Of a stretch of DNA of 64,000 nucleotides, positions 4,403 to 55,653 are shown piece by piece. Position numbers and translations under genes: made by a program. The DNA is taken from positions 2,542,001-2,606,000 of the forward strand of contig JAJHOH010000001.1 in NCBI GenBank assembly GCA_021651055.1. Direction: 5' to 3'. A model generated the notes under the pieces. That model was not told the DNA's origin, did no database searches, and saw nothing but the letters and a program-made list of their open reading frames with translations. This DNA is from Candidatus Manganitrophus morganii (GTDB taxonomy: Bacteria; Nitrospirota; Nitrospiria; SBBL01; Manganitrophaceae). The first letter of the stretch is position 1. Each line of letters begins with the position of its first letter.

Positions 4403-6159
4403 GCCACTTCTTGATTCTGGAGACGGAACGGGGAATCGCGCTGATCGCGGCGGTTTTTCTGATTGTCGTCTTCGGTTTTCTCGGTGTCTCCGTCGTCTCG
4501 CTGGTCGGCACGCAGGGATTCTCTGCGATGAACGAGGTGAGATCGGATCAGGCCTTTTTCATCGCCGCGGGGGGGATGCAGATGGCCCGGTATCAGTTCG
4601 AAACGGGAACCCCTTGCGCCGGGCTGACCAACGCCGTTCCGACGGCGCTGGGAGCAGGAAGCTTTACCACTGTCGGGACGGCCTACAATCCGGTGTCCAC
4701 CCTTGTCGATCAGGCCGGCGGGATCACTAGTTCCGTGGCGACGATTCCGGTCGACGCCATCGCGGGTTATGCGCCGCACGGACGCATCCGCATTGATGCG
4801 GAGTCGATCGATTATACCGGAACGTCCACGGACGCGCTGGTCTGCGGCGCCCCGGCCTGTTTCACCGGCGCGGAGCGGGGCGCGGACGGAACGACGGCCG
4901 CCGCCCATGCAAACAATGCCCAGGTGACTCAGAGCCAATGCCTGATCCGCTCGATCGGAACGGTCGGCGGACCGCTCGGCAACAGCCAACGGGTTATCGA
5001 GGTGGGTCTGTCTAACAGCGGTCCCTCGGTTCAAACCGGCGAGAACACGATTTCGGGTCATCCCTCGGACACCGTAACGCTGGACATCCCGTTACCGACT
5101 CCCGTCGATCCGACGCGCTCCTTTCTTCTTTTCAATACCCGTCACAATCACAACGAGCCGACCGGCGCAATGCTCCGCGGCCAGATCCTCGATGCGAATA
5201 CGATCCGGTTTCAACAGAGGACAAACGCGTCCCGGCCGATCACAATCCGGTGGTATGTGGTGGCGTACCCCGCCGGTGTCAACGTGCAGCGCGGCTCCAT
5301 TACCCAAAGCAACGCGGTGGTGAATGTCGGCGCTGCACAAGGTTTTGCAGGGGTATCCTCTTTAAGTCAGGCCTTCGTGACCTGGTCGAAAACGCCCGAC
5401 CCGGACCATGTCACTTGGGATAACAATGACCCGATTCTCGGGGAGCTGACGAGTCCGACCAATCTTCAATTTCGGGCGACGGATGCCGATAATACCCATA
5501 CCGTCTGGTGGCAGGTGATCGAGTTTACCAACCCGGCCGACATTTTTGTCCAGAAGGGGACCATCGGTCCAACGGCGATGAATCAAGGGGGGCCTACTGC
5601 TCAAACCGTTACGGCGACACTTCCGATCGCAGTCGATGTCAGCAAGACATTCGTGTTGGTGGGATATCGGACGTCGAGGGGCCAAGACGAAGACGACATC
5701 GTCGGGGCCCGGATGCTGCGGGCACAATTGACCGGCCCGACCACCATCACCATCGATCGCGCCACAAGGCGGACCGCCAGAATCGAAGAGATCACCTGGC
5801 AGGCGATCGAACTGAGAGATGGCTCCAACGTTCAACACGGAAGCGAGACCTTTCCCAACAGCGATCCACTGGAGACCGTCAACTTGGCGACCCCGGTCGA
5901 CGTGACCCGTTCCGTTGCCTTCGCGTCGGTTCAACCGGCGGCGGGACAGAGCATGGGCCGCTCTCCGTATGCTCCGAACAACGGTTCCGATTCCGATTTT
6001 GTCGGCGTCGGCTCGGTCACCATGGCCTTGTCTCCGACCCAGATCACGATGCAGCGAAGCAATACCAATTCGTCGGCCGACATCGGCTGGTTTGTCGTCG
6101 AGTTCGGGTCGGGCGGCGGGGGGCAGCCTCGGATCGATTGGATCGAGCGGTTTCAGTAG
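4399..6159 (+). CDS. PilX/MshP-like minor pilin with four tandem beta modules
   Basis: This 586-residue protein begins with ERGIALIAAVFLIVVFGFLG, a PilX/MshP-type membrane helix that lacks the standard G/FTLxE site. Residues about 127-176 form a small motif (DAESIDYTG, FTGAERGADGTTAAAH). From residue 211 to 569 the sequence is a tandem array of four modules of 85-94 residues. Each opens with VQxG (211, 296, 384, 478) and closes with a Trp-containing strand (WYVVAY, WQVIEF, WQAIEL, WFVVEF). Most PilX/MshP proteins are far shorter. The head is therefore a repeat stalk or ligand-binding array, plausibly exposed at the pilus tip. The ATG at 4399 overlaps the preceding stop; an open frame further upstream is coincidental. 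Confidence 0.85.
   Translation: MSHFLILETERGIALIAAVFLIVVFGFLGVSVVSLVGTQGFSAMNEVRSDQAFFIAAGGMQMARYQFETGTPCAGLTNAVPTALGAGSFTTVGTAYNPVSTLVDQAGGITSSVATIPVDAIAGYAPHGRIRIDAESIDYTGTSTDALVCGAPACFTGAERGADGTTAAAHANNAQVTQSQCLIRSIGTVGGPLGNSQRVIEVGLSNSGPSVQTGENTISGHPSDTVTLDIPLPTPVDPTRSFLLFNTRHNHNEPTGAMLRGQILDANTIRFQQRTNASRPITIRWYVVAYPAGVNVQRGSITQSNAVVNVGAAQGFAGVSSLSQAFVTWSKTPDPDHVTWDNNDPILGELTSPTNLQFRATDADNTHTVWWQVIEFTNPADIFVQKGTIGPTAMNQGGPTAQTVTATLPIAVDVSKTFVLVGYRTSRGQDEDDIVGARMLRAQLTGPTTITIDRATRRTARIEEITWQAIELRDGSNVQHGSETFPNSDPLETVNLATPVDVTRSVAFASVQPAAGQSMGRSPYAPNNGSDSDFVGVGSVTMALSPTQITMQRSNTNSSADIGWFVVEFGSGGGGQPRIDWIERFQ
5029..6105 (+). repeat. Four tandem protein modules encoded in the PilX-like gene
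   Basis: The modules cover residues 211-295, 296-383, 384-477 and 478-569 of the protein that starts at 4399. Shared marks are VQxG at the start, a central strand with Ser and aromatic residues (SFLLF, AFVTW, TFVLVGY), an acidic stretch before a GxL or RxQL turn, and the closing Trp strand. Divergence between copies is large, so the array is old and not a recent slippage product. Confidence 0.8.
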
Positions 6160-10744: not shown

Positions 10745-11292
10745 GCGCATTGACCCAACTACAATGGTCAAAATTATCAAAAAGAGAGCGAATTCTCTTC
10801 GTCTCCACCTTATTTGCGCTCCTCTATTCGTTTGTCTTCTTTTTCCTGCAGCCGAGGATGGCGGAACGGCAGAGACTCGATGAGCAAAAGAAAACCCTTC
10901 AACAAGAAATTTCGATGCTTTCCTCCACGATCCCCGTGCTGATGCGAAGAGCCGAAGCCGCCAACCCCTCTGAATCCGAGCCGGCGCCGGTCCTTTCGGA
11001 TGCGTCGCTCTCGATGATCTTGGAAGAGCTCAGCCGGCAGGCGCGGATCAAGGAGGTCCAACTGATGGAGCTCAAACCAAGTCCGGCTGAAAAGAAAGAG
11101 GGCTATGAAATTTTGCAGATTCAGATCAAGAGCCGCTCCCGATTTTTCAATCTGGGAGATTATATTTCGGCGCTGGAGCGTCTCCCGCGCCCCATTGTGA
11201 TCGAACGTCTCAAAATTGAATCAACCGCCGAGACCAGTCCCGACGTCATCGCCGAGATGGTCCTACAGGTTTATAAGGGAGGAGGCGTATGA
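10741..11292 (+). CDS. pilO: Type IV pilus assembly protein PilO
   Basis: PilO forms the periplasmic alignment complex with PilN and PilP. The protein has 183 residues: a cytoplasmic start, a membrane helix at about residues 20-37 (ILFVSTLFALLYSFVFFFL), a coiled coil at about 40-62, and a periplasmic domain with two beta-alpha-beta units. A Pro/Glu-rich linker at about 75-85 separates coil and domain. The ATG at 10741 overlaps the pilN stop and the TGA overlaps the pilP start, so the three are coupled. Sequence conservation in this family is low; the assignment rests on topology and position. Confidence 0.92.
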   Translation: MSALTQLQWSKLSKRERILFVSTLFALLYSFVFFFLQPRMAERQRLDEQKKTLQQEISMLSSTIPVLMRRAEAANPSESEPAPVLSDASLSMILEELSRQARIKEVQLMELKPSPAEKKEGYEILQIQIKSRSRFFNLGDYISALERLPRPIVIERLKIESTAETSPDVIAEMVLQVYKGGGV

Positions 11293-11690
11293 AGAAAATG
11301 GCTGTTGTCATCCTGTCCATTTGTTTACTCCTTCTCACGCTGCCTGTTTTCTCGGCCCAGAATGCCCCTTCATTGATCGACATGAATCGCGCTTTTCTTG
11401 AAGAGAAGCAGAGTGCGACCGATTGGGGAAGGGATCCGTTTATTCTTCCGGCCCCACTCCCCGAGCAGGCGCTGTTGAACAGTGTCGAGAACGATGCCGG
11501 AAAAGCATTTTCTTTGAGCGCGATCATCTACCGGGATGGGGAAGGGGCGGCGATCATCAATCACCGTATTCTTCGTCTGGGGGATCGGATTGAAGGGATG
11601 ATGGTGCAAGAAATTCTCTCCGATCGGGTAGTTCTCAGAGAAGGTTCTAAGATAATGGAATTGAAAGTAGACCAATTTTTAGCGAAGTAA
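11289..11690 (+). CDS. pilP: Type IV pilus assembly protein PilP
   Basis: PilP links the PilN-PilO inner-membrane complex to the PilQ secretin. The 133-residue protein has a signal sequence (KKMAVVILSICLLLLTLPVFSA) without a lipobox cysteine, so it is not an obvious lipoprotein, unlike PilP of Pseudomonas or Neisseria. After a linker with the typical WGRDPFILP element (about residues 46-54) comes a beta-sandwich domain (about 70-130) with AIINHRILRLGDRIEGM and VVLREGSKIMELKV. Its position between pilO and pilQ supports the call. Confidence 0.88.
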   Translation: MKKMAVVILSICLLLLTLPVFSAQNAPSLIDMNRAFLEEKQSATDWGRDPFILPAPLPEQALLNSVENDAGKAFSLSAIIYRDGEGAAIINHRILRLGDRIEGMMVQEILSDRVVLREGSKIMELKVDQFLAK

Positions 11691-11715
11691 TGAACGCTTA
11701 TGCGGAGGATATTCG

Positions 11716-13125
11716 ATGAACGCATTTTTCACGGCCCGGCCTAGAGGGGCTCTCATCAATGTAGCGATATACTTTTCCCTCTTCCTGATTTTTGTCCCCG
11801 CAGCGATGCGGGCGGATGCACAGGAAGCGGCCGAGCGCGCGTCCATCTCGCTTAAAAAAGATGATTCCCTCTTTTCGATGGAATTCCGAAATGCCGAGTT
11901 GAAGGATGTCCTTCGCGCCCTGGGTCAAGAGAATCATCTCAATATCATTATCAGTGACGATGTCGACGGGAAGTTGACCCTCAGCTTCCGGGAGGTCACG
12001 TTCGAGGAGGCGCTCGAATCGATTTTGAAAATCAACAACCTGACCTCTTTCCGGGAGGGAGACATTATCCGCGTGATGAAATCTCCTTTCGGAGAAGGAG
12101 AGGCTGATCTTGCGACGAAGATCATCCCGATCCATTTCGGGAGTGCCAAAGAGATGCAGGAGAGCGTGAAAGGGCTGCTGACCAAAAAAGGAAGCCTTAC
12201 GATCGATGTCCGAACCAATGCTTTGGTTGTCCGTGATTATGCCTGGAACATGGCGAAAATTAATGAGGTGGTGAAGGAACTCGACAGCAAGACCCCTCAA
12301 GTCATGATCGAAGCGCGGATCGTCGAGGTGAATGCCAATTTTACCCGAGAGTTGGGCGTCCAGTGGGGAGGAGCGTACGAGTCGGATCGGTTTCAGGTGA
12401 CTGGAGCGACGAGGGGAACGACCTCAACAACCGGTTCAAATGCCCTGACCGGGGGAGCCGGTCTTTCCGGGAATAACTTTGCAGTCAATCTTCCGGCGGC
12501 GGTCGGCATCGGCTCGGGCGGGGGGCTGGGTTTTACCTTCGCCAATGCGGGATCGAGCCTCCAGCTGGATCTTCAGCTCTCCGCAATGGAAGATACCGGG
12601 CGGGGGAAGATCTTATCCAATCCCCGTGTTCTCACTTTAAATAATAAAGAAGCGAAAATTTCCAGCGGAACAGAAATCCTCATACCGACAACTTCAATTT
12701 TATCGACGGCAACCTCGGCGACGGAAACAACAGCCGGCGCCACAACGACAACAGGGGTTACTGTCATCGATGCGAAATTAGAGCTCACCGTAACGCCCCA
12801 CATTACACCGGACAATCAAATTTTGCTTCATGTGAAGACCGAAAAAAAAGATCCCGATTTTAACCGCCAAGTCCAGAACATCCCCCCCCTGACGACTCGC
12901 ACCGCCGAGACCGATCTCTTAGTCGGAGACAATGAGACCGTCGTAATCGGCGGAATTTATACCCGTAACGAGTCGCACGGAGAGAAGAGCGTTCCCTGGC
13001 TCTCAAAGATTCCCATCTTAGGCTGGTTATTCAAAAAAGAAACAAAAATGGACATCCAAAATGAACTCTTGATTTTCATTACGCCGACCGTCTATAAAGG
13101 AGGGAACGAGGTCGCCCGGCAGTAA
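11716..13125 (+). CDS. pilQ: Type IV pilus outer-membrane secretin PilQ
   Basis: PilQ forms the outer-membrane channel for the pilus. The 469-residue protein has a signal peptide (about 1-36), an N0-like domain (about 55-118, MEFRNAELKDVLRALGQ), an N1 or secretin_N domain (about 130-190), and the secretin domain to the end. The signature VGDNETVVIGGIYTR is followed by VPWLSKIPILGWLFK. It is shorter than proteobacterial PilQ (about 700) because the N-terminal AMIN domains are missing, so it resembles MshL in size. A Thr/Ala-rich insert near 325-350 may be the gate or beta-hairpin lip. It ends the pil operon. AGGAG lies at 11704-11708, ahead of the ATG. Confidence 0.95.
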   Translation: MNAFFTARPRGALINVAIYFSLFLIFVPAAMRADAQEAAERASISLKKDDSLFSMEFRNAELKDVLRALGQENHLNIIISDDVDGKLTLSFREVTFEEALESILKINNLTSFREGDIIRVMKSPFGEGEADLATKIIPIHFGSAKEMQESVKGLLTKKGSLTIDVRTNALVVRDYAWNMAKINEVVKELDSKTPQVMIEARIVEVNANFTRELGVQWGGAYESDRFQVTGATRGTTSTTGSNALTGGAGLSGNNFAVNLPAAVGIGSGGGLGFTFANAGSSLQLDLQLSAMEDTGRGKILSNPRVLTLNNKEAKISSGTEILIPTTSILSTATSATETTAGATTTTGVTVIDAKLELTVTPHITPDNQILLHVKTEKKDPDFNRQVQNIPPLTTRTAETDLLVGDNETVVIGGIYTRNESHGEKSVPWLSKIPILGWLFKKETKMDIQNELLIFITPTVYKGGNEVARQ

Positions 13126-38121: not shown

Positions 38122-38151
38122 TTGACATTCGGTGGATGGATGATCTATATT
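38122..38151 (+). promoter_or_regulatory. Promoter of the first ATP synthase gene block
   Basis: TTGACA at 38122-38127 and TATATT at 38146-38151 are 18 bases apart. The -35 box is perfect and the -10 matches five of six. Transcription would start near 38158, about 44 bases before the atpZ start. It lies between nuoN and atpZ, so the two respiratory operons can be expressed separately. Confidence 0.6.
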
Positions 38152-40496: not shown

Positions 40497-41045
40497 ATGA
40501 AAAGCGAGGTCACGGCGGAACGGTATGCGCAAGCCCTGTTGGAGGTCGCGGAGGGGCATGCCCTCGGGGAGTCGATCCTGGAGCAGATCGATCGATTCCG
40601 CCAGGCGGCCGCCCACTATCCGGAGTTGAGCCGCTTTCTTGGGAGTCCCCGCGTTCCTGAGGAGAAGAAAGAAGCGTTGATCGGCCGGATCTTCGAGGGA
40701 GAGGCGAAAAAAGTGATGATCCACTTTGTCCGTCTTCTTCTCCGCAAGGGGCGGATCGACTATCTGGAAGATATCCTCGCTCTCTACCCGAAGCTTCACG
40801 ATGCCAAGCGCGGGGTGTTGAAGGGAACGCTGACGACGGTTCACCCGCTCGACCCGGAGGTGCTCGCCCGGTTAAAATCAAAACTCGAAGCCGAAGTCGG
40901 CCGTACATTGGAGTTGACCTACTTGGAGGACCCGGAGATTCTCGGCGGATTTGTCTTCTCGACCGGAACCACCCTCATCGATGCCAGCGTTCAACGACAA
41001 TTGGACGAATTGGGAGAGAGGTTAAGAACCCTCCCGGTTGCCTAA
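40497..41045 (+). CDS. atpH: ATP synthase subunit delta
   Basis: Subunit delta joins the b stalk to the top of the alpha-beta head. The 182-residue protein has the helical N-terminal domain (about 5-105, with AERYAQALLEVAEGHALG) and the C-terminal domain ending in YLEDPEILGGFVFSTGTTLIDASVQRQLDELGERL, the family signature. It starts directly at the atpF stop (TAAATG). Unlike the usual order, atpA does not follow; a receiver-domain gene and about 500 non-coding bases lie between. Confidence 0.96.
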   Translation: MKSEVTAERYAQALLEVAEGHALGESILEQIDRFRQAAAHYPELSRFLGSPRVPEEKKEALIGRIFEGEAKKVMIHFVRLLLRKGRIDYLEDILALYPKLHDAKRGVLKGTLTTVHPLDPEVLARLKSKLEAEVGRTLELTYLEDPEILGGFVFSTGTTLIDASVQRQLDELGERLRTLPVA

Positions 41046-41319
41046 TCATCGGGTGAACAGGTTCCCCGACCCGCCTTTCTCACTGACCTTATAAAGACCT
41101 CCTTCCGTATCGGGCATCCTCCACGAGAGGATTGAATTGCTATAAGGAAGTGTGTATCCTTGCAGGAGGATTTCTTGACGGCCGAACCTGAGCTGTCCCT
41201 CCACTCAACCGGGAAAGTTCCTTGCCGCAGATTCATCGGAGCGTCGGTTTGATTATGACGGAGGCTGTTCGGAGAGTAAGGATAGACTCCCTGCTTGCAG
41301 GGAGAAGGTGGAGTGATTC
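41046..41319. promoter_or_regulatory. Gap before the receiver-phosphoacceptor gene, with possible promoter and hairpin
   Basis: The 274-base gap has no gene. TTGAAT (41132-41137) and TATCCT (41155-41160) with a 17-base spacer form a weak promoter candidate. CTCCCTGC (41287-41294) and GCAGGGAG (41297-41304) can pair just before the ribosome site (GGAGAAGGTGGAG, 41301-41313) and would cover part of it. This could give translational control of the next gene. Confidence 0.35.
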
Positions 41320-41997
41320 ATGAAAGGAAAAAAGAAAGTCCTCGTCGTCGACGATAATCGGGACACCGTCCGGATTATCCGGGATGCATTGGAAGGGGCC
41401 GGTTTTTCCGTCGCTTCCGCTTATGACGGCAGAGAGGCGCTGGAACGCGTTCGCGAAGAGGCGCCGGACCTGATGATCCTCGATTTGATGATGCCGAAGA
41501 TGAGCGGTTACGAGGTCTGCAACGAAATTCGAAAAGACCCCAAGACAAAAGAGCTGATTGTGTTGATGCTCACCGCCCGATCGGATATCGACGCCAAGAT
41601 TCAGGGGATTGAAGGGGGCGCCAACGATTATCTGGTCAAGCCGGTCGAGCCGCGCGAAGTCGTCTCCCGGGTCCGCCGCTTTCTTGCCACCGAAGGGGCC
41701 TACCAGGAAAAGGTCCTGCTGGAACGACTCGAGGCGATCGGGCAGATCAGCCTGACGGTTCGACACGAGATCAACAATCCGTTGGCCGTGATCTGCGGGC
41801 AGGCGCAGCTGCTTCTTCAACGAAAAGACCTCCCGGAGGAGGTCCGGAGCAAGCTTAAGATCATGTATGAAATGGGCCTTCGGATCAGCGAAATCATTAA
41901 ACAGCTCGATCAGGTTCAGGATAAGACGCTGGAGTATATCCGTGGAGAAAAAATGATCGATATCCGACCTCCCAAGAAACGCTCCGCAGGTGCGTAA
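41320..41997 (+). CDS. Receiver domain fused to a histidine phosphoacceptor (HisKA) domain, no ATPase domain
   Basis: The 225-residue soluble protein has a complete receiver domain (about 5-122): acidic pair D11-D12, phospho-acceptor D55, T85 and K107. It is followed by a HisKA-type dimerisation helix pair (about 135-200) with H149 in RHEINNPLAVICGQAQLLL. The chain then ends with a short basic tail, so the ATP-binding domain of a histidine kinase is absent. It may pass phosphate between Asp and His sites, like a phosphotransferase such as Spo0B, or be a dimeric response regulator. It sits between atpH and atpA. No DNA-binding domain is seen. Confidence 0.85.
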   Translation: MKGKKKVLVVDDNRDTVRIIRDALEGAGFSVASAYDGREALERVREEAPDLMILDLMMPKMSGYEVCNEIRKDPKTKELIVLMLTARSDIDAKIQGIEGGANDYLVKPVEPREVVSRVRRFLATEGAYQEKVLLERLEAIGQISLTVRHEINNPLAVICGQAQLLLQRKDLPEEVRSKLKIMYEMGLRISEIIKQLDQVQDKTLEYIRGEKMIDIRPPKKRSAGA

Positions 41998-42082
41998 CCC
42001 GGTTCACGTCCCCATACGCTGCCGGCGAACGAATTTCCTCTTGTTTGTCCGTATTTAATTCCAGAAATGCTCCCACACAATC

Positions 42083-42112
42083 TTGACAACCGATTTGAAA
42101 AAAGTTTATAGT
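42083..42112 (+). promoter_or_regulatory. Promoter of the second ATP synthase block (atpA)
   Basis: TTGACA at 42083-42088 and TATAGT at 42107-42112 are 18 bases apart, with ten of twelve or better matches to consensus. The leader before atpA would be about 107 bases. The sequence CTTGACAACCGA is shared with the porin promoter at 46470. So atpA-G-D-C can be made from its own start. Confidence 0.7.
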
Positions 42113-42225
42113 ATACAGTCTTTTGCCTTGAGCCGTTCGAATTGTCTCTTATACATCGCTCAAGGTCCTTCAGTGTGTTTCTTTTATTTACTTTATATTT
42201 AGATGACGACTAAGGAGAATGTGGC

Positions 42226-43746
<1,521 letters not shown>

Positions 43747-46470: not shown

Positions 46471-46500
46471 TTGACAACCGAATGACGTAAGTGATATAGT
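46471..46500 (+). promoter_or_regulatory. Promoter of the porin gene
   Basis: TTGACA at 46471-46476 and TATAGT at 46495-46500 are 18 bases apart; TGA precedes the -10 box as an extended -10. The hexamers and spacing are the same as in the atpA promoter, and both start CTTGACAACCGA. Transcription would start near 46507. Confidence 0.75.
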
Positions 46501-53685: not shown

Positions 53686-55653
53686 TTGGAAGAAGGGATC
53701 CTTTTTCGTCTGGCGTTTGATCAAGCCTCCGTCGGCATGGTGGTGCTGGCCATGGATCCGCTCGGCCAGTTTATCCAGGTCAATCCGGCATTCTGCCGGA
53801 TGACCGGATATTCCCGGGAAGAGCTGTTGGCGCGCGATTTTCAAAGCATTACCGCCCCCCAAGACCTGGAAAAAAACCTCAAAGGGATACGCTCCCTTCT
53901 CGAACAGCCGATCCCGTCCCTGCAGATTGAAAAGCGCTACATCCGAAAAGACGGCCGTCCCTTTTGGGTCCGTCTGAATGCTTCTCTGCTTCGGGACGAC
54001 CGGGCAAGGCCGACCTGCATCGTTGTCGAAGTGGAAGACATCGAAACCCATAAGAAAACGGAAGAGGCGTTGCGGGAGACCGACCAGACGCTCCGTCCGC
54101 TGATTCAAGCGTCTCCTCTGGCCATCGTGACCATCGACCTCGAGCTGAATGTGAAGATGTGGAACCCGGCGGCCGAACACCTCTTCGGATGGCGCACCGA
54201 GGAGATCCTCGGCCGCCCCCTTCCGATTATCCCGCGGGAAAAGCAGGAGGAGTTTCAGCTTTACGTCGACCGTTTGGTGGAGGATGGACCGACGTTTGTG
54301 AATACCCCCAAGCGGCGGGTCCGAAAAGACGGCACGGTGATCGACGTTCGGGTTTCGACCGCGCTCCTGCGCAATGCCGACGGCAAGGTCAACGGCATCA
54401 TGGGAATCTTCACCGATATCACCGAGGAGAAGCGCCTGGAAGCGGAGCTTCGCCACGCTCAAAAGCTGGAGGGGATCGGTCAATTGGCCGGCGGGATCGC
54501 CCATGAGTTCAACAACCTCCTGACGGCGATCATCGGCAATATCGAATTGGTGCTGGGGGAGACCGTGTCGGGATCACGTCTGCACGCCACCCTGTCCCGG
54601 GTCGATCAGGCGGCGCAACGGGCGGCGGTGCTCACGCAGCAGCTTTTGACCTTCAGCCGGCGATCGAGGATCGATTTGAAACCGCTCCATCTGCAGGTCG
54701 TGGCCGAGGAGGTGGTCTGTCTCCTCGGCCAGACGTTCGATCGGCGCATCCGTCTCCGCGTCGAATCGGTCGAAGGGGTCTGGCCGGTTTTTGCCGATGC
54801 AGGTCAGATGAACCAAATCCTGATGAATCTCTGCGTGAACGCGCGGGATGCCCTCCTGGAGCGGTTGGGGGAGACGGAGAACCCAAGAGAGCCGGCCGAT
54901 TGGGAGCCCCGGATCGTCATCGGGATAGAAAATGCCCCTTGTGATGAAGACTTCTTTCGCGCTCACCCGAAGGTCAAACCGGGGGAGTATGTCTGCCTGT
55001 CGGTTTCCGACAACGGCATCGGGATCGACGAAGCGATCCGGCACCGGATTTTCGAGCCCTTCTTCACCACGAAAGAGGTGGGGCGCGGCACCGGCCTGGG
55101 CTTGGCCGCTGTCTATGGGATTATCCGGCAGCATCTGGGATGGATCGAGCTGCAGACCGTAAAGAGCGAGGGGACGGTTTTCAAAATCTATCTCCCAGCA
55201 GGACAGAATGCGCAGGTCCTCGATCAACAGGCGGGCCGGCCGAAGCGGGTCGCCGGCGGGGATGAAACGATCCTTTTTATTGACGACGAGGTGGCCATCC
55301 GACAATTGGCCAAGACGGTTTTGGAGCAGTATGGATACCGTGTCCTCCTGGCGGGAGACGGGGTCGAGGCGGTGGGGATTTTTCAGCGCGAGATTGATCG
55401 GGTTCACCTCGTCGTTCTCGATCTGATGATGCCGCGCCGGTCGGGAGAAGAGGTGTTCCGGGAATTGAGAGCCCTCGCCCCCGGCGTGAAGATCCTCATT
55501 TCAAGCGGCCACCCTCCGGCCGGCGGCGATTTGTCCGCGCTCGGCGGCCCTGCCGCCGGGTTCATCTCCAAACCCTACCATCCGGACGATCTGGCCCGGA
55601 AGGTGAGGGCTCTGCTCGACCGATCGGGCGGAAAAGGACCATCCTCTCACTGA
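53686..55653 (+). CDS. Hybrid histidine kinase: PAS-PAS-HisKA-HATPase-receiver
   Basis: The 655-residue cytoplasmic protein has two PAS domains (about 5-120 and 130-250), a HisKA domain with the phospho-acceptor His in [17 protein letters not shown], an HATPase domain with the N box ([10 protein letters not shown]), DNGIGI and [13 protein letters not shown], and a C-terminal receiver (about 528-650) with DDE at its start and the acceptor Asp in [12 protein letters not shown]. No membrane segment is visible, so it senses an internal signal, perhaps through a PAS-bound cofactor. The start is a TTG at 53686 with GAGGT upstream. A possible -10 (TATACT, 53626-53631) lies upstream without a good -35. 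No partner regulator is adjacent. Confidence 0.92.

Follow-up and report, generated by a model that had tools for sequence, protein, structure and literature searches.

The gene that separates atpH from atpA in Candidatus Manganitrophus morganii encodes a 225-residue protein, here called RRH, in which a receiver domain is joined to a DHp helical hairpin that is followed by no kinase ATPase (CA) domain. Comparison of protein sequences shows that its DHp half resembles those of a class of DHp proteins that lack CA and share a C-terminal tail of the approximate form EY..G.KM.DL. The parts of RRH are known; the new element here is the bare-DHp class with a tail of its own. We tentatively favor the reading that RRH is a functional protein that, under the control of its receiver, dephosphorylates a partner response regulator or exchanges phosphoryl groups with it in a branched relay. 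A literature search that covered few subscription journals found no paper on RRH or on the bare-DHp class, and the terms sought were absent from the Manganitrophaceae genome paper (PMC9040806). All coordinates refer to the window, the whole 64,000-nucleotide stretch that was analyzed, unless a locus is named, and the features around RRH are as follows.

40497..41045, + strand: atpH (delta subunit, OSCP), the upstream neighbor (PF00213, 3e-42)
41132..41160, + strand: promoter-like block in front of the RRH gene, with the window sequence TTGAAT-17-TATCCT (stretch conserved in 6/6 genus genomes)
41287..41304, + strand: hairpin beside the ribosome site (from folding; not conserved in the genus)
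41320..41997, + strand: RRH gene, receiver–DHp protein of 225 aa (ORF call, Pfam, genus comparison)
41338..41676, + strand: receiver domain, residues 7–119 (Pfam PF00072, 2e-32; AlphaFold2 fold; Foldseek matches)
41482–41484, + strand: codon of the receiver phospho-acceptor D55
41701..41940, + strand: DHp helical hairpin, residues 128–166 and 173–207 (Pfam PF00512, 2e-10; AlphaFold2 helices; profile against structures)
41764–41766, + strand: codon of H149 in the DHp
41776–41778, + strand: codon of N153 in the DHp
41932..41964, + strand: C-terminal tail EYIRGEKMIDI, common to other CA-less DHp proteins (sequence comparison)
42083..42112, + strand: atpA promoter, sigma-70-type TTGACA-18-TATAGT (consensus scan; 6/6 genus genomes)
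42226..43746, + strand: atpA (alpha subunit), the downstream neighbor (PF00006, PF00306, PF02874)

A Pfam scan of RRH returns Response_reg at residues 7–119 (2e-32) and HisKA at residues 146–197 (2e-10), and nothing else above the family cut-offs: there is no HATPase_c and no DNA-, RNA- or ATP-binding domain. The receiver residues D11, D12, D55, T85, and K107 are invariant in the aligned genus members, and the H-box, HEINNP at residues 149–154, contains H149, E150, and N153. Both D55 and H149 are invariant in the RRH proteins of six genus members, in keeping with the original prediction that the two phospho-sites are intact. RRH thus has the DHp and phospho-acceptor histidine of a HisKA histidine kinase and lacks the CA/HATPase domain; it likewise has the receiver and phospho-aspartate of a response regulator and lacks a DNA-binding or enzymatic output domain, only HisKA being found downstream. 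The protein stops ∼76 residues after H149, 10 residues past EYIRGEKMIDI. An AlphaFold2 model built from a 40-row alignment (a four-sequence alignment had reached a pLDDT of only 47) has a mean pLDDT of 80, a receiver fold and a disordered tail, and in it helices 128–166 and 173–207 likely form a hairpin. The Foldseek matches shown for RRH are dominated by the receiver and are informative on that domain, not on the DHp half. The DHp profile match spans positions 8–58 of a 66-position model, and the solved structures nearest to the profile are kinases, with 3a0r the best at 1.8e-13.

The lack of a kinase ATPase domain was part of the original prediction, and a domain overlooked in another frame nearby had been named as what would overturn it. 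The 228-nt gap between RRH and atpA holds no frame long enough for HATPase. In the whole 4.29 Mb genome, no HATPase match starts closer than 13 kb away; together, these observations exclude a missed domain. Among the 87 HisKA matches in the genome, RRH is the only one without an HATPase start within 900 bp, and 16 HATPase matches lie away from any HisKA. Because it has no CA domain, RRH would be unable to autophosphorylate.

RRH occurs in each of the other five genus genomes at 91–100% identity (about 99.6–100% in Candidatus Manganitrophus sp. GAC4, CP114561.1) and always lies between atpH and atpA, so that the broken gene order first seen in the window recurs in 6/6 genus genomes. A tblastn search of 25 atpA loci outside the genus returns no RRH; atpH is recognizable in 17 of these, its match ending about 33–130 bp before atpA. 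Among the genomes compared, the insertion is found only in Candidatus Manganitrophus. A near full-length ortholog, which if placed elsewhere beside an intact atp operon would have spoken against a link to this locus, was likewise found nowhere outside the genus in a search of 78 related genomes. Outside the genus, the best matches reach the receiver only, and the best of these in named genomes, from a member of the Desulfobulbaceae (L022), has no atp context.

The reading frame of RRH contains no internal stop in any of the six genomes. Its dN/dS ratios for G000 against G003, G001, and G005 are 0.030, 0.051, and 0.057, compared with 0.050, 0.044, and 0.056 for atpA and 0.115, 0.172, and 0.170 for atpH; RRH is therefore conserved above atpH and level with atpA and, as judged from these ratios, is under strong purifying selection. 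In the near-identical relative G004, atpA (locus L141, 4879–3351) is interrupted by in-frame stops, which probably stem from indel errors in the sequencing of this metagenome-assembled genome, and G004 was excluded from the atpA ratios because of them.

The proposed promoter for atpA passes a consensus scan and is kept in 6/6 genomes. The weaker block before RRH scores below the threshold of the same scan, and has TATTCT in place of TATCCT in three other genus genomes. Strong sigma-70-like promoters, with 11/12 matches, also stand before the first atp genes (38122–38151) and after atpC (46471–46500). The original prediction gave RRH a leader of its own with an RNA hairpin at the ribosome site. 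This hairpin exists in the window (z-score −1.84) but is not conserved: among four leaders folded, those of G001 and G005 have none and that of G003 has an unrelated one. Comparison of the leader with Rfam yields no known RNA element at E up to 1, and a known RNA element was rejected on this ground and for the lack of conservation of the hairpin.

When the DHp half alone is used as the query, two proteins are retrieved from a second family in the same taxonomic class: L135 (43%), a 464-residue HAMP–DHp protein that also matches Cache weakly, and L136, one of 479 residues in which the phospho-histidine is replaced. Both of these, and RRH, stop shortly past a G.(K/R)M.D tail. A profile of CA-less proteins (A2) was run on 395 genomes of Nitrospirota and gave matches as strong as 1e-41, among which those that reach the tail are set apart from ordinary kinases, most of which end before it. 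Roughly 68 matches, as counted by eye, reach at least profile position 97, two of them being RRH. From these, 53 loci in 43 genomes were taken as the class sample, including one that ends at position 96; outside the sample, seven more are CA-less by sequence and about six were left out, of which three, with frames of 660–664 aa, may be ordinary kinases. RRH itself combines the features that define the class, namely a DHp, an EY..G.KM.D(L/I)-like tail followed by a stop, and no HATPase in the protein.

The frame ends no more than 27 residues past the profile match in 53/53 class loci, a count that is partly by construction because the loci were chosen for reaching the tail. The histidine is kept in 52/53, a Glu at H+1 in 53/53, and an Asn or Gln at H+4 in 53/53 (the H-box of L194, for example, reads HEMRQP). 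In the CA-less DHp of L192 (G023, 4709–6148), the histidine is lost (REVHQA), and the Glu at H+1 and the Gln at H+4 are kept. Inputs are varied: the ten proteins scanned with Pfam carry a receiver, HAMP, a weak Cache, GAF, PAS, a Tll0287-like domain, or nothing recognized. Receiver matches identify L181, L203, L204, and L233 as receiver–DHp forms like RRH, with 36% identity to RRH for L181 and 32% for L233. The class extends to the Desulfobacterota, to which the Desulfobulbaceae genome G408 belongs: with a cut-off of 1e-20, 37 of 247 genomes of this phylum have a match, and 13 of 15 inspected loci have a CA-less C-end (L252 and L254 are without an H-motif match). One CA-less member was found in a KSB1 genome, among 24 genomes reached via loci of other groups.

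Gene neighborhoods were surveyed for 50 of the 53 loci, three being absent from the ORF calls. In the 25 most frequent families of each list (out of 97 and 133), no single partner is constant. HATPase occurs in 5 of 95 downstream neighbors; for the 92 upstream neighbors, the 25 most frequent families do not include it. Some members are coupled to partner genes. In L188 and L190, a CA-less GAF–DHp gene lies upstream of a complete kinase gene, abutting or overlapping it, with an NtrC-type regulator next, and in L193, a complete kinase lies two genes downstream of such a gene; these three are possible cassettes of a kinase plus a co-kinase or phosphatase. In L220 and L228, a CA-less GAF–PAS–DHp gene overlaps a receiver–HD gene, with no kinase gene directly beside it, and the receiver–DHp gene of L233 is ∼120 bp from a hybrid kinase. 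Genes for the ATP synthase adjoin none of the 53 loci. In G190 (L232/L258), atpD and then an atpC-like frame occupy 11037–12786; the class gene of L232 is encoded on the other strand, ∼3.4 kb and four genes away from this atpD, and the proximity is taken as coincidence. The class is not characterized by linkage to ATP-synthase genes. RRH has no partner regulator or kinase gene next to it; the hybrid kinase named at 53686 as a possible partner does exist, with HisKA, HATPase, and receiver matches at about 54.5–55.6 kb.

In HisKA kinases, according to one study (PMC3510030), phosphatase activity requires a Thr or Asn at H+4 and kinase activity a Glu or Asp at H+1; to act as a phosphatase, NtrB or EnvZ needs no more than its DHp domain. 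RRH keeps H149, E150, and N153 but has no CA domain, and it is for this reason that we favor a receiver-controlled phosphatase or phosphotransferase. RRH would form a DHp dimer, and phosphorylation of D55 by a kinase of the genome would change the state of the DHp. The DHp could then dock a partner response regulator, from which a phosphoryl group would be removed by the route that involves N153; alternatively, H149 could hand phosphoryl groups on. The Asn or Gln at H+4 in all 53 class loci fits a phosphatase. Phosphatase activity alone does not account for the conservation, as His and Glu are near-invariant and a pure phosphatase should not strictly need either; their near-complete retention speaks for phosphotransfer being in use. 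A phosphorelay-type element, as originally predicted, is therefore a reasonable description of an intact, CA-less protein with two phospho-sites and a genus-conserved place, whose relatives are in part coupled to kinases or response regulators.

The main rival, to which we assign a lower but still substantial probability, is that a partner kinase phosphorylates H149: a complete kinase would pair with RRH in a mixed dimer or transient complex, its CA domain would phosphorylate the histidine, and RRH would serve as a co-kinase or histidine phosphotransferase. The retention in nearly all class members of the His and H+1 Glu that serve kinase chemistry in HisKA (PMC3510030) is what this model would predict, the kinase-linked arrangements of L188, L190, and L193 point the same way, and there is a precedent in the CA-inactivated ChrS of Corynebacterium, which heterodimerizes with the kinase HrrS (PMC9491836). 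Against it, no kinase gene stands beside RRH. If instead the DHp half only dimerized under the control of the receiver, the phospho-histidine would go unused. The DHp is a dimerization fold, and L192 has lost the histidine, but the retention of this residue in 52 of 53 class members and in all six RRH proteins makes this reading rather improbable. That RRH derives from a hybrid kinase by loss of the CA domain and is now neutral is strongly disfavored and, in our estimate, very improbable. By-eye comparison does show that the tail corresponds to the DHp–CA linker of ordinary kinases; dN/dS values of about 0.03–0.06, frames free of stops in 6/6 genomes, conservation above that of atpH, and many CA-less relatives in two phyla oppose it. 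The intact frames, the atpA-like constraint, and the status of RRH as the sole HATPase-less HisKA of 87 indicate that it is not a broken kinase.

The original prediction went further and suggested that RRH reports energy state or regulates the ATP synthase. We consider it unlikely that RRH reports on or controls the enzyme or expression from atpA onward. The position is fixed in 6/6 genomes with a conserved atpA promoter downstream, and RRH is as conserved as atpA; the site would have left the genes from atpA onward with a promoter of their own. However, RRH has no domain for binding DNA, RNA, or ATP, the promoter-like block in front of it points to a unit of its own, and no class relative adjoins atp genes, with one of the 53 (L232, above) lying ∼3.4 kb from atpD. 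A regulatory effect on the ATP synthase is possible, but the claim has the gene position as its only basis and is at present unsupported.

Bare-DHp-output two-component proteins are now a testable class in Nitrospirota, Desulfobacterota, and one KSB1 genome, and such proteins may be passed over as histidine kinases in genome annotation. Should such proteins be dedicated phosphatases or phosphotransferases, then many ‘kinases’ of these phyla act opposite to their name. At its broadest, an interpretation that we regard as improbable, CA-less DHp proteins with the KM.D tail would make up a widespread and so far undescribed class of phosphatases or phosphotransferases that are controlled by receivers or sensors and are never kinases alone, and the receiver-gated member between atpH and atpA would link the phosphorelay network of a manganese-oxidizing autotroph to expression from atpA onward or to the state of the ATP synthase. 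RRH of Manganitrophus offers a first handle on signaling at the ATP-synthase locus in manganese chemolithoautotrophs.

RRH is distinct from the known systems that it most resembles. Like the HisKA kinases NtrB, EnvZ, HK853, and CrdS, it has a DHp with His, Glu at H+1, and Asn at H+4, but it differs from them in lacking the CA/HATPase domain and a sensor and in carrying a receiver in front. Spo0B and ChpT are dimeric DHp-type proteins that pass phosphoryl groups and are not kinases, and both retain a degenerate CA-like domain. They have no receiver, whereas RRH has one and stops at the DHp–CA linker, its short stretch after H149 containing no such domain. The receiver–ANTAR antiterminators of the EutV type also place helices after a receiver, and EutV is among the Foldseek matches over ∼200 columns; however, the rmsd is about 13 Å, and in Pfam RRH matches HisKA, not ANTAR. 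ChrS of Corynebacterium glutamicum (PMC9491836) is a kinase whose CA domain is not functional and which acts via a paralogous kinase. It is a laboratory-evolved frameshift in a single protein, whereas the CA-less DHp class is conserved.
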